From: Neoarius graeffei | Lineage: Eukaryota > Chordata > Actinopteri > Siluriformes > Ariidae | DNA: 64,000 bases | Assembly (NCBI RefSeq): GCF_027579695.1 | Contig: NC_083571.1 | Coordinates: 49,090,390 to 49,154,389, forward strand | Direction of reading: 5' to 3' | Shown here: positions 2,182 through 26,961 of the stretch, one piece after another | How positions within the stretch are numbered: position 1 is the stretch's first letter | Layout of the letters: every line of letters begins with the position of its first letter | Translations under genes and position numbers: made by a program | Notes under the pieces: model-generated | What the model was told of the DNA's origin: nothing | What the model saw: the letters and a program-made list of their open reading frames with translations, nothing else | Database searches by the model: none

Positions 2182-2189
2182 CTCTTATG
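2182..2189. repeat. Target-site duplication of H1, left
   Basis: CTCTTATG, identical to 26954-26961. Confidence 0.85.
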
Positions 2190-2437
2190 CAGGCCCGCCG
2201 ACAGGGGGGGACAAACGGGTATGTTGTCCCGGGCCCAGAACTGGGCTCTCATGAAGTTGCGATTATTTTATTTCATTTCAAAATGTGTTGATTTGGGGGA
2301 GAAATGTCAGAAATGTATTTGCATTCAATAAATGATTTCTAGATCTTTTGCCTTTATTGTCTTTGAAAAAGGCGTCAAGAACCCCCTACCACCCCTAATG
2401 CAAAAATGGTTTGGTCTGACTCTTTCAGCCCGTCCCT

Positions 2438-2470
2438 TCTGTGTGTGTGTGTGTGTGTGTGTGAGAGAGA
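2438..2470. repeat. GT/GA microsatellite
   Basis: A run of GT units followed by GAGAGA inside the left part of H1. The open frame across it is low-complexity and not a gene. Confidence 0.8.
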
Positions 2471-2745
2471 ACGAGCAGCCCCTCCCCCAACTCGCGCGCT
2501 GCGAGCAGAGTGCAGGATTTTCTCAGAGCGCTGACTCCAAACAACGGGGATTTACACGAAAACAGAAGGAGATATTCACAAAATTCTTTCACAGTGAGTG
2601 CCACAAGGCTCTCCTGAACACACTGATGTAATTTTTTTTGTCTGTAGTGTAAGTAAATGAGGTCAATAGAGCGCGTTGAAAACGAGTGACTTTTCTGCTA
2701 AGTTTATAATGGCAGTCTATGGGGCAGCGTGCCTGTGCTCTCTTC

Positions 2746-2753
2746 ACTTTCAG
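2746..2753. repeat. Target-site duplication of H2, left
   Basis: ACTTTCAG, matching 25987-25994 exactly. Confidence 0.85.
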
Positions 2754-2912
2754 CAGAGGTGGAAAGAGTACTAAAATATTATACTCAAGTACAAGTACTG
2801 TTGGAGCTTCCGGTTTGGCAAATGGCTGACTAGTTGTGAACTCAGAAGCTCCCAGTCGTTGAAGTGATCATATTTTTCAAAGCTGAAATTCAAGTTAATA
2901 GCTAAAGGAGGG

Positions 2913-3959
2913 ATGAATAAGACTAAGAAAGAAACAGAAAAGAAACAAAAGGAGCGAGGAAAAATGGGAGATAAAAAAGAAGACGACGTCGAAGACAGGG
3001 CAAATATTGATGACATGCTAGCTAGCATGAAGACTGGCTTCGACGGCGTGGGTAAGCAAATTGAGTCCAACAGGGAGGAAAACCGAAAAGAAATGAAGGA
3101 CATTCGAGAAAGCATTCAAAACGTTGGAGGTATGCTCAGACAGGAACTTGCCACTTTTAAAGAGGAGATTGGCAAACGATTTGAAACCATTGACATAGGA
3201 ATGGAAGCTCAAGGCAAAGACATTAAAGACCTACAAGATCGCGTGGTGGAAACCGAGGAGTGGAATACTGATTTGAAAGAAATTTTTGCATCCTCTTTGA
3301 AGCAGCAAAGGGAGCTACAGGAAAAAATGACAGATTTAGAGTGGAGGTCGAGAAAAAATAATATAAGAATTTGGGGAGTTCCGGAGGGCACGGAGAAAGA
3401 CTCAATACATGGGTTCGTTGAACGTCTGCTCCGCGAAAAGCTTAACATCACGGAAGACACCAGTTTACAAATACAACGCGCCCATAGAGTGAGGACATCC
3501 AGGTCGGCTCAAAATAAAAATCCTAGAGCGATCATTGTCAACTTCTTGCAATTCCAACAGAAGGAGGATGTCCTCAACAGAGCATGGAAGACCAAAATCG
3601 AAATTGGGGGAAAGAGAGTGACTTTTGACCACGACTATCCAGCGGAGGTGGCTGCAAAGCGCCGCGACTACGCTGGGCTGAAGCGAGTTTTGAAGGACGG
3701 GGGAATTCGATTCCAGTCTCCACGTACGGCGTTGAAGATACACTGGCAAGAGGGCATTCAGACATACAACACCCCGCAAGACGCAGCGAAGGCGATGAAG
3801 GAAAAGGGATTACAGGTAGACGGACTGGTAGAGGAAGAGCCGACACTGCCAGAACAGCAGCTCGAGGCAGCATCCAAGTGGCGCAGAGTAAAAGACAGGG
3901 GGACAGGCATAGCCGAAAGAGCAAGGAAGCAATTGAGGCGGTTCTCCTGGAGCACTTGA
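2913..3959 (+). CDS. L1 ORF1 RNA-binding chaperone protein
   Basis: 348 residues from ATG 2913. The N-terminus is very Lys/Glu-rich. A long heptad-like coiled coil (about residues 45-150) should trimerise the protein. An RRM-like domain follows (NNIRIWGVPEGTEKDSI, about 150-235), then the L1 C-terminal domain (VTFDHDYPAEVAAKRRDY). L1 ORF1p coats its own RNA and acts as a nucleic-acid chaperone in the ribonucleoprotein. The frame is open to the end, and ORF2 starts about 600 bp downstream on the same strand. Confidence 0.9.
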   Translation: MNKTKKETEKKQKERGKMGDKKEDDVEDRANIDDMLASMKTGFDGVGKQIESNREENRKEMKDIRESIQNVGGMLRQELATFKEEIGKRFETIDIGMEAQGKDIKDLQDRVVETEEWNTDLKEIFASSLKQQRELQEKMTDLEWRSRKNNIRIWGVPEGTEKDSIHGFVERLLREKLNITEDTSLQIQRAHRVRTSRSAQNKNPRAIIVNFLQFQQKEDVLNRAWKTKIEIGGKRVTFDHDYPAEVAAKRRDYAGLKRVLKDGGIRFQSPRTALKIHWQEGIQTYNTPQDAAKAMKEKGLQVDGLVEEEPTLPEQQLEAASKWRRVKDRGTGIAERARKQLRRFSWST

Positions 3960-4557
3960 GTGGAGAAGACTGGAAAGTTCAATGGACAGTCACGAACCCT
4001 TAGTATAATGTCCGGTTTTCTAAATATTATTAGACAACCCACTCCGTCTGATTGCTGACTTATTTTTTATTTTTTGAAAGTCATGTAAGTAGCTCTTCTA
4101 TTACTACTTAGGTTAAGGATGGGTTATATGCCTACCTGCTAATTTGTTTTAAAATGAACATTGAAATAACTACATAAATAATTGTTTAGCCTTTAGAATA
4201 TTTCTTATCTATAAAGCGAGGTTGAAGTATCCCATATACTATTTTGTTTGGCTTTGGAGGGGGGAAGAAATGCAGTAAGACTGGGAGCAATGGTTTCAAG
4301 AAGTTGGACACTTTTAGCGTGAACGGAGGACTTCAGTTTGGGGAGTTTTCCATCGCTAAGGGGGGCCCCCTGAGGAGAGGATTTCCCCTCACCCCACCAA
4401 CAGGGGAAATGGGGAGACATAAATATCCCCAATATGCCACGGAGGCTCACTTTTCTGTTTATTGTTATATAGTTAGAACAGCTGTTGCTGATGTGTTTTT
4501 TGTTTTGGAGTTTAGCTTATGGGTAATGAGAATGTATTGGGGAACTGATGTACTATA

Positions 4558-24724: not shown

Positions 24725-25835
24725 AAAGTCCTTCAATAAACCCATCCTTTAGCGCAAATGAGCTTAACCTAGTTCAAAGCATGATGCTAGCAGTAGCTGC
24801 ATAAGGCAACATCGTGTGGGCCTTTCGTCAGCAACAAGCCACGGCGGGCAAACAATAATAATCAAGCGTCCTTACCTTAAAACGTTGTCTTGACCGCAGA
24901 ACTTCTCAAGTATTTCACTTAAATCCACACGGGTTAACAACACACCCAACACAGCTAGCGAGAAATGTGGATATGCGCTAGCTTTGTATTGCTATTCCCC
25001 TCAGTATGCTTACTCTGTCTGCTGCCCCAACTGTGAACATTATAGGCTACAATATTTTCATCAATTTCTTCAGTAGATGCCGTTTTAGACATTTTATTAT
25101 CCCCATCGAAATATGCTATTATACTAACAGGATTATAACTCAAATCACACAACACGTATTCAAATCACAACTGATTTATTTTACTGTTGGACAGATCATA
25201 GCATATCTAGCCTAGCTGCACATAGCCTAGCTGCTGGTAGGCTGATAACTGATAAGTAGCTGATATTCTGAACAGATTGGTGATCCTTACCTTAAAAAGT
25301 CTGTGACTTTAGGCAACGATTCTATCATTACCTGCATCTCTCTCTTTTTTTTTTCCTTTTATGCGCCCCGCTAACATGTGAACGCTTCATCTTTCAAAGC
25401 CTCTAAATTTGTGTCTCAGTAGTCTGCAGTCTTTGGCGCGCTTTCGTGCGTGATGTTACATTTTGTTACATTTTATTCTGGTACAGTTGTGGGTGTTCGT
25501 TTCGCGAACCACATCCACCATGTCTCTTACAGCAGGCTACTGTGCGCTCATTTATTTCTAACCTTATTTCTATCCGTACATTAATGTAGGCCCACAATTC
25601 CGACAGTTTATTATTTTATTAATATTACAAGGCCCCTGATTGGCTGTGGCCCAGGGGCTTGAGCCCCCCCCGAAGCCCCCCTTAAAGCGCCGGTGCATGT
25701 CTGCCATCGTCTGTGTGAGACTCGCGCGCGCGACAACTGTCCTTCCCGTGATTCATTTCCAGAACGCATTTCCCCTTCTCCGTTTTAGCCTTTTTTTATT
25801 TTTTATTTATTTATTTTTTACTCAGTAACGGTTGT
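24725..25835. other. H2 right part, possible first transposase exon
   Basis: Mostly non-coding. On the minus strand an ATG near 25092 opens MSKTASTEEIDENIVAYNVH and reaches a possible donor around AGACAGAGTAAG. This could be the 5' coding exon ahead of the BED exon of H2. I have no domain to confirm it. Confidence 0.3.
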
Positions 25836-25986
25836 GATGTAAAATGTACCGAAGTACACTACTTAAAAGAAAACATACTTAAGTAAAAGTACACTCTTTA
25901 AAAATTACTTGAAAAAGTATAAGTACACAAAAAAGCTACTCAAGTACAGTAGCGCGAGTAATGTAATTTGTTACTTTCCACCTCTG
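25836..25986 (-). repeat. Right subterminal and terminal region of H2
   Basis: Repeated AAGTAAAAGTACA-like units followed by GTTACTTTCCACCTCTG, mirroring the left end and the region at 8571-8680. Confidence 0.75.
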
Positions 25987-25994
25987 ACTTTCAG
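25987..25994. repeat. Target-site duplication of H2, right
   Basis: ACTTTCAG, matching 2746-2753. H1 sequence resumes after it. Confidence 0.85.
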
Positions 25995-26358
25995 GCTTCT
26001 CATTCAAAAACTGCAAGTCCTATCATGTAGGTAGACACATTGTGTGAATCAGGACAAGTGTGGCTACTACTTTTGAGAAAATTATGTGTGTGGAGTGAAA
26101 ATTGGAGCTGAAAACACAGTTTAAATGAGAAAGTTTGAGCTATTTTTCCAAGCTCTCTACACTCTGCTCCACTGGTGTGTAACGCAATAGACACCCATTT
26201 TCTCAGGCTTTATAAGGGGGAGGAGGGGTGGAGACACGGGGGGTGGGCGTGTTTCTTTTCAAAATATGGCTTGTGGGAACCGTTATTCCAAAATCTCGTA
26301 CTCCACCTTTAAGGGGAAAAAAACGCTTCAACAATCAGCGTGCATGCCATTTGCCAAC

Positions 26359-26501
26359 ATGCACAAGCCAGGAGCACAGAAAAGAAAAGAGAAAAAGAGA
26401 GGAAGAAACCAAGAGACTCAGGGGCTCACTGCATAAATATTTTAAAAAAGATTCGGATGATGCAGCAGGTACTAGCAAAGGCAGTGGGGCAGCTGAGCCA
26501 G
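26359..26501 (+). CDS. N-terminal exon of a ZMYM1/TTF-type hAT transposase, remnant in H1
   Basis: ATG 26359 opens MHKPGAQKRKEKKREEETKR, then LRGSLHKYFKK, ending at a donor GTAAGA at 26502. A short basic leader with KRLRGSLHKYF is what I know from fish ZMYM1-like/TTF-type hAT proteins. Nothing of the catalytic body is present. It lies in H1's own DNA, oriented left to right. Confidence 0.5.
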
Positions 26502-26953
26502 GTAAGACACAGCCAACTTTTTCCAGCCCCGTAAAGTAACCCCAACCAAGGCACGCGTGGCACGCAATTCATGTTACAAACGAGGGGAGAGCAAGTCACA
26601 CTGAACACCATATCAAACGCACAGGGCATCGAATCATTTCATAACCACAACGGCTTAATAACATTGTGTTTCATATATCTGATTGAAGCTAAGAATATTC
26701 ACATTAGCCCGCAATCATATCCCGCCGTTTCTCGAGTGGTGTGTTCTTCTCTGCTTTTCACACTGGACAGTACGCATGCACAGTATACTATGTTCGCCCC
26801 CAGCCCTACCCAAAATCCCCCGTCCATCGCTGCTCCTTCAAGAGCACCCCAATCGCGTGATAAGAGAGGTGGGTGTGTGTGTGGGTTGGCCCGGGGGGGG
26901 GGCCCATTCAGAGCATTTTGTCCCGGGCCCAGCCAAAGCTGTCAGCGGCCCTG

Positions 26954-26961
26954 CTCTTATG
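26954..26961. repeat. Target-site duplication of H1, right
   Basis: CTCTTATG, identical to 2182-2189. The two copies are nearly 25 kb apart and each directly abuts the terminal CAG or CTG of H1. Confidence 0.85.

Follow-up and report, generated by a model that had tools for sequence, protein, structure and literature searches.

An at least seven-level transposon nest in Neoarius graeffei, very probably built in two places around a composite hAT element

Results

We analyzed a 64-kb stretch of the Neoarius graeffei genome (C3:49090390-49154389 of the 2.34-Gb assembly), referred to here as the window, in which an earlier note had described a six-level nest of transposons; C3, C7, C9, C26 and the like are contig labels, and L035, L047 and the like are locus labels. 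The nest is real and deeper than that note reported: its deepest chain has seven levels, H1 > H2 > H7 > LINE B > H3 > H4 > inner LINE (LINE, long interspersed nuclear element). The nesting itself stands, borne out by empty sites and exact duplications, and the level count rises to at least seven because H7 (9892-25695) sits between H2 and LINE B. Three hAT-type insertions (H5, H6 and H7) and a full-length LINE, LINE A, had been overlooked in that inventory; the three were initially spotted by eye and then scored by a scan for 8-bp repeats with inverted ends. Containment is directly observed and each of its steps stands; other genome copies show exact empty sites for H2, H3, H4 and the inner LINE. 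The loci compared were the best matches picked by search rather than random copies, and genome counts refer to the scored matches, not to copy numbers beyond them.

The nest lies within intron 1 of a THAP9/P-element-like gene on the minus strand. The first THAP-domain exon (27071-27151) joins the second (1591-1782), and the hand-joined pair matches PF05485 at 2.1e-20 over profile positions 1-87 of 87, a complete THAP domain; a further exon (3-599) carries an RNase H-like domain (PF21787, 1.1e-46), so that the gene has both the THAP domain and the RNase H-like transposase domain. If this host gene is itself a mobile P element, the chain would have eight levels; one end of the gene falls outside the window. 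The outermost inserted element, the hAT-type H1 (2190-26953), has the ends CAGGCCCGCCGACAG..CTGTCAGCGGCCCTG and the duplication CTCTTATG. Most H1 copies elsewhere begin within two bases of 2190 and finish near 26953, and of the five H1 loci printed, four are flanked by an exact 8-bp duplication of their own and one lies in a CA repeat. One open reading frame (ORF) of H1 gave no Pfam match.

Exact 8-bp repeats that adjoin inverted ends were sought over all 64 kb and their terminal matches counted out of 14, with 20 shuffles as the control. The duplications by which the earlier note had marked H1 (CTCTTATG, at 2182 and 26954), H2 (ACTTTCAG, at 2746 and 25987) and H3 (AACTGACC, at 10871 and 22086) are all exact and adjoin inverted ends, and those of H5 and H6 are exact in the window as well. 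Terminal inverted repeats match at 13/14 positions in H2 and H5, 12/14 in H1, 11/14 in H6, 10/14 in H7 and 9/14 in H3, where shuffles gave 0.25 pairs each at 12/14 and zero at 13/14 or better; four 14/14 pairs were rejected as artefacts within a long inverted repeat. The ends of H6 by themselves are near chance, because 11/14 pairs are expected 1.5 times per shuffle (4 observed). The H3 duplication by itself is weak (9/14 ends; 5 such pairs with an exact repeat observed, 0.8 expected), so the H3 call rests on reading frame and empty sites. For H7, the 7/8 duplication and 10/14 ends seen in the window fall within chance alone (8 pairs observed, 4.9 expected), and the duplication is exact, 8/8, in all four other composites read on both sides. 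The H4 duplication, rearranged in the window, is exact in copies L038 and L042. The earlier note had proposed checking whether the duplications adjoin conserved ends in other copies, and they do so exactly in 4/5 H1, 5/7 H2 and 2/2 H3 copies, the last being L047 and L049, the H3 copies with both ends read. An 8-bp target-site duplication with short terminal inverted repeats, as in the hAT superfamily, is found for H1-H7; H1, H2, H5, H6 and H7 are assigned to hAT by ends and duplications only.

Within H1 lies H2 (2754-25986, minus strand; hAT-type, duplication ACTTTCAG), whose site is empty in all six H1 loci cut out elsewhere, each continuous over it, and which has composite copies at non-local positions. 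Its BED-like first exon (about 9680-9889, minus strand) was recognized by eye and gave no Pfam match and 0 matches in a PDB search; this exon and the H2 ends may resemble those of Tol2. Three elements inside H2 are most likely inherited passengers. H5 (9228-9644) is a short hAT-type element with the duplication ATTATGAT; H7, just 5' of the BED-like exon, has the duplication CATGTCCG, of which the right copy here reads CATGTCTG; and LINE B (10371-22615, plus strand; RVT_1, 3.4e-10) is a 5'-truncated LINE in H7, split by H3, with the target duplication AAGGT, reduced to AGGT in the left copy at the window locus. A related empty LINE B site occurs within H6.

Composite H2 copies measure about 4.45 kb (4442-4454 bp in three copies), and the window H2 comes to 4463 bp once LINE A, H3 and H6 are discounted; the copy on C26, which has an exact empty site in place of LINE B, is 6306 bp long and carries other inserts. 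Among 26 non-local H2 copies listed from 40 candidates scored, H7 sequence is present in 25 and the left part of H5 in all 26, whereas LINE B is present in 14, represented by an exact empty site in 8 and unclear in 4 (L035, L076, L082 and L087), L035 matching only to 10237, inside H7. Five H2 copies away from the window locus, C26 and L035 among them, all carry the same H5 and are continuous over the LINE A site (four printed); four of them (all but L035) carry H7 through 10370, and the three that also carry LINE B are continuous over the H3 site, with an 8-bp overlap. The H6 site is likewise continuous, and so empty, in all four composites whose right halves were fetched. The H5 duplication is exact on both sides in 3/4 composites, and a second H5-like stretch stands at another place in the C26 copy. 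Both ends were read in seven non-local H2 copies: five have exact 8-bp duplications (CACTTCAG, ATCATCGC, GTCAGAAC, CAAGTTAC and CTGTGAAC), C26 has a 7/8 duplication and C9 has none; in four more copies the right end lay outside the fetched stretch. A separate query with 9884-10900, for which 40 of 1,073 candidates were scored, gave 38 non-local matches, all of which span H7 and LINE B and stop at the H3 target, 10878. Because the passengers are directly observed at identical positions in copies with different target duplications, we conclude that H2 is a composite hAT that multiplied together with H5 and H7 and, in one of the groups, with LINE B. On C7, composite copies matching window positions 9884-10878 start at 37328352, 37338557, 37348735 and 37358930, about 10 kb apart on one strand, and look like a small tandem array.

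LINE A, H6 and H3 were most likely added to the window copy of H2 after it landed, because they are absent from the composites read at those sites (5, 4 and 3 copies, respectively). LINE A (2803-8555, plus strand) has two ORFs, an in-frame stop at 5305, a poly-A tail and the 15-bp target duplication AGTACAAGTACTGTT; an RNA-binding ORF1 (Transposase_22, 3.5e-05) and an ORF2 with endonuclease and reverse transcriptase (Exo_endo_phos, 6.2e-14; RVT_1, 1.7e-42) fit an L1-like element. H3 (10879-22085, minus strand; duplication AACTGACC) is an autonomous-type hAT in LINE B with a BED exon, a catalytic exon and a C-terminal dimerisation region (zf-BED, 2e-08, for a hand-joined exon pair; Dimer_Tnp_hAT, 2e-14), and one of its exons matches Hermes at 4.7e-04. 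When the LINE B flanks are joined across H3, the coding frame holds one stop against 21 and 28 in the other frames, which upholds the earlier placement, by frame, of a LINE between H2 and H3. An insert at 12155-12834 in H3 coding exon 3, LINE-tail-like by eye and accompanied by microsatellites, shows no target duplication; that it is an old intron resident was ruled out, since the tandem paralogue described below has no such insert and its exon continues uninterrupted.

H6 (22924-24716), a hAT-type element in H7 with the duplication GCTACATC, contains a 935-bp stretch (23120-24054) foreign to its family: four of five other H6 loci have about 120 bp in its place, and the fifth shows the right part only. 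Within this stretch lies a 629-bp segment copied in inverted orientation from H2 intron and the left portion of H5 (23128-23756, minus strand; 99.2% to 8840-9467), which is missing from other H6 copies and so was ruled out as a standard H6 part. The distant C26 copy scores as high as the local H2 (1113 vs 1109 bits), so either may have been its donor. The patch as a whole consists of this inverted H2/H5 sequence, a 79% GC stretch (23757-23876) and a microsatellite, replacing about 120 native bases. A ribosomal RNA origin was considered for the GC-rich stretch after 23757 and rejected, as it gave no ribosomal match and a weak microRNA-family match only; a scan for RNA families found nothing at gathering level in the window.

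H4 (15364-21457, plus strand) is an autonomous-type hAT (zf-BED, 7.7e-08; Dimer_Tnp_hAT, 1.1e-21) whose coding exons are no longer intact: the inner LINE interrupts them, and there appears to be a frameshift near 19940. The earlier note had fixed H4 by its interruption of coding sequence, and this did not hold: H4 sits in intron 1 of H3, where 4/4 H3 loci are empty, and a coding interruption of H3 was ruled out by these loci together with the 15/120 listed relatives that align across the join of H3 exons 1 and 2 (closest are P0009 and P0047, while P0107 aligns poorly and is unrelated). Fifteen other close H3 matches end at 15237. The coding argument fared well for the inner LINE (15954-19473, plus strand), whose site in H4 coding sequence is crossed by 111/120 listed relatives, 108 of them gapless; 4/4 H4 loci are continuous there (CACACTTCAG/TGAGAAGG), and eight other close H4 copies end at or before 15953. 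This LINE encodes endonuclease, reverse transcriptase and, after the latter, a PHD finger in one open frame, ends in a (TGAG)n tail and shows no target duplication; the label RTE that the earlier note gave it is putative. The protein shares 98% identity with a Neoarius graeffei record and at most 60% with the next relatives (best 120 of 677), among which, nearly all being without a name, no other fish name occurs. Horizontal transfer of the inner LINE is possible.

In native H3 and H4 copies the H4 target in H3 is GGCCAGTACCATCTGGC and the H4 ends are TAGTGGTGCAAC..GTTGCACCACTA. The left junction in the window (15111-15416) is rearranged, so that H4 lacks an intact duplication here: ACCATC is followed by 126 bp of H3 flank in perfect inverted copy (hinge at 15237), by the H4 end minus its first bases, and by a second fold-back (hinge at 15379). 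Excision of hAT elements leaves a hairpin-ended flank, and the double fold-back would fit either the opening of such a hairpin at a distance from its tip or inverted template switching in series. The junction could also be read as the record of an aborted hAT excision.

Positions 1-28508 are the right portion of a unit in a tandem duplication, also directly observed, whose other unit lies upstream (matched by C3:49020069-49048317) at a spacing of 70.3-70.6 kb. Summed over nine segments, the two copies differ by 59 substitutions in 27,553 aligned bases (0.05-0.52% per segment). All nest levels are common to both, and the rearranged H4 junction is identical in the two; the 680-bp insert in H3 exon 3 is private to the window copy, and an insert of 382 bp is private to the other.

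The earlier note had also proposed comparing divergence with nesting order, which we did by counting substitutions between nest elements and other genome copies. Values are 2.45-3.83% for H1 (6 loci), 2.14-2.44% for the H2 composite (4), 2.34-3.16% for H6 (5), 0.45-0.73% for H3 (4) and 0.46-0.94% for H4 (6). Within the same four composites, the 672 bp that are H2's own diverge by 0.45-0.89%, H5 by 1.68-2.88% and H7 by 3.59-4.87%, so the higher value of the H2 composite stems from H7 and H5; LINE B gives 0.87-1.85% (three composite copies). H1 alone is clearly more diverged, and hence older, than H3 and H4. The rest is barely ordered: H2 proper is no more diverged than H3 and H4 and cannot be placed relative to them, parts that travel together differ several-fold, and H6 exceeds H2.

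Discussion

Taken together, these data make it highly probable that the nest was built in two places, with an H2 composite assembled elsewhere, landing in H1, gaining further elements there and then being duplicated in tandem. H2 would have received H5 and H7 elsewhere in the genome, after which a truncated LINE B would have landed in its H7. As hAT transposase works on terminal repeats only, the enlarged H2 would still have been mobile and could have gone on jumping and multiplying with its passengers, presumably moved by a hAT transposase supplied in trans. One composite copy would then have jumped into H1, itself already in intron 1 of the THAP9/P-element-like gene, and LINE A, H6 and H3 would have entered the landed composite, after which H3 would have taken in H4, and H4 the LINE with the PHD finger. 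The tandem duplication (70.3 kb apart) would finally have copied everything, each copy thereafter gaining a sizeable insertion of its own.

The order H1, H2, LINE, H3, H4, RTE that the earlier note had read directly from the nesting is in this light most likely wrong at the H2/LINE step. Other H2 copies with their own duplications hold H5, H7 and LINE B at the same positions, so LINE B was most likely inside H2 before H2 entered H1, unless the whole family descends from the window locus. The proposed order stands from H3 inward, as there are other H3 copies without H4 and other H4 copies without the inner LINE. H4 may already have been in H3 when H3 arrived; the window H3 is the only H3 copy seen with H4.

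Several observations weigh against assembly elsewhere. Not all of the 38 matches to the separate query are independent: on C7 (37328352-37359924) four follow one another at intervals of about 10 kb, two on C20 are separated by 6 kb, and no fewer than two (C2 and C29) recur in the list of 26; C9 is a composite without a target duplication. Moreover, none of the H2 copies examined was seen to lack H5 or H7, a statement with no dedicated search result behind it, so that the first two steps rest on duplications, ends and the interruption of the H2 5' region. The same gap is what would favor taking H5, H7 and LINE B, present in most copies examined, as native parts of one large H2 rather than as insertions. 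We consider this very improbable, given the exact empty LINE B sites in 8/26 copies, the inverted ends and 8-bp duplications that H5 and H7 have of their own (exact in 3/4 and 4/4 composites, respectively), the second H5-like stretch elsewhere within C26 and the position of H7 directly 5' of the BED-like exon's presumed start codon.

A different possibility is that the window locus is the birthplace of the composite, H2 having entered H1 first and H5, H7 and LINE B having inserted here, so that composites elsewhere would be daughters whose departure preceded the arrival of LINE A, H6 and H3. Every shared passenger is indeed present at the window locus. Counting for assembly elsewhere, in a comparison of 13 composites the window copy matches the LINE B-carrying group at 4/4 diagnostic columns, although two of these columns are one two-base indel and only two LINE B-less copies were compared. 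Of the 13, none departs further from the majority base than the window copy (2.77% vs 0.67-1.89%), which has 14 private changes; this speaks against a source here though it does not by itself exclude one. The private changes could postdate departure, and the alignment is star-like and cannot alone rule the window locus out. A birthplace here would, however, require a single parent for dozens of copies (38 scored, partly non-independent) and for both the LINE B-carrying and the LINE B-less groups (14 and 8 of 26), and we judge it unlikely; we infer that the composite family arose at another locus. Nor are the apparent copies at all likely to be segmental duplications or assembly artefacts rather than products of transposition, an explanation to which we give next to no weight. 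A large tandem duplication does exist here, some composites elsewhere stand in short tandem series, and the window holds two long palindromes, but the composites end at the terminal repeats, the exact 8-bp duplications of five copies differ from one another, and the same rearranged H4 junction occurs in both tandem copies.

Nested insertions are an established relative clock and have been used statistically, TinT ordering families by them (extracts of PMC3014933) and interruption analysis testing selection (extracts of PMC2517846); here, by contrast, inherited nesting most likely misorders a local event. In those passages of PMC3014933, DNA transposons are named once and inherited nesting is not discussed. 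Tol2 with its internal Angel element, as portrayed in excerpts of PMC8151067, is a fish hAT carrying a passenger and in this resembles H2 as one hAT element holding another element; H2 differs in carrying two hATs and a LINE fragment, in the coexistence of forms with and without the LINE, and in that one composite became the substrate for further nesting. Nested long terminal repeat (LTR) retrotransposons are common in large plant genomes (part of PMC6911290), whereas the nest described here consists mostly of DNA transposons and is in part itself mobile. Titles and abstract openings in a limited library showed nothing on point about co-mobilised nests, which speaks only weakly for their absence. 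Known kinds of element make up both the nest and the composite, whose value is that of a worked case in which nesting misorders events and the intermediates have been preserved.

Nests carried within cut-and-paste elements can be inherited, in which case the inner element predates the outer insertion. A simple check is whether the inner element recurs at the identical base in other copies of the outer element, and this could be run genome-wide to obtain an error rate. The locus itself offers a relative series: the composite with and without its LINE, later local insertions, a tandem duplication and copy-specific insertions. Somewhat speculatively, H2 could be a ratchet-like "snowball" transposon, in which each round of amplification fixes another passenger, enlarged forms displace the bare element, and passengers or size aid persistence; we hold this doubtful, and if it were true, nest-based chronologies in hAT-rich genomes would be systematically misordered.

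Other observations

Protein searches of viral contigs found no relatives, and a pattern scan of prokaryote contigs gave a single match. Upstream of the first THAP exon, what is probably a 5'-truncated LINE, in minus orientation, was recognized by eye at 27195-27627; TAATAGA[T/C]GGTAC flanks it on each side. At 53788-54513 lies a palindrome of 726 bp that is nearly perfect (97% complementary) and has no spacer. The 4.9-kb stretch 39618-44555 has direct ends that are 97% alike (39622-39921 and 44242-44541), an LTR-element-like layout, and is 93% identical to stretches near C3:49004739 and 49075078.

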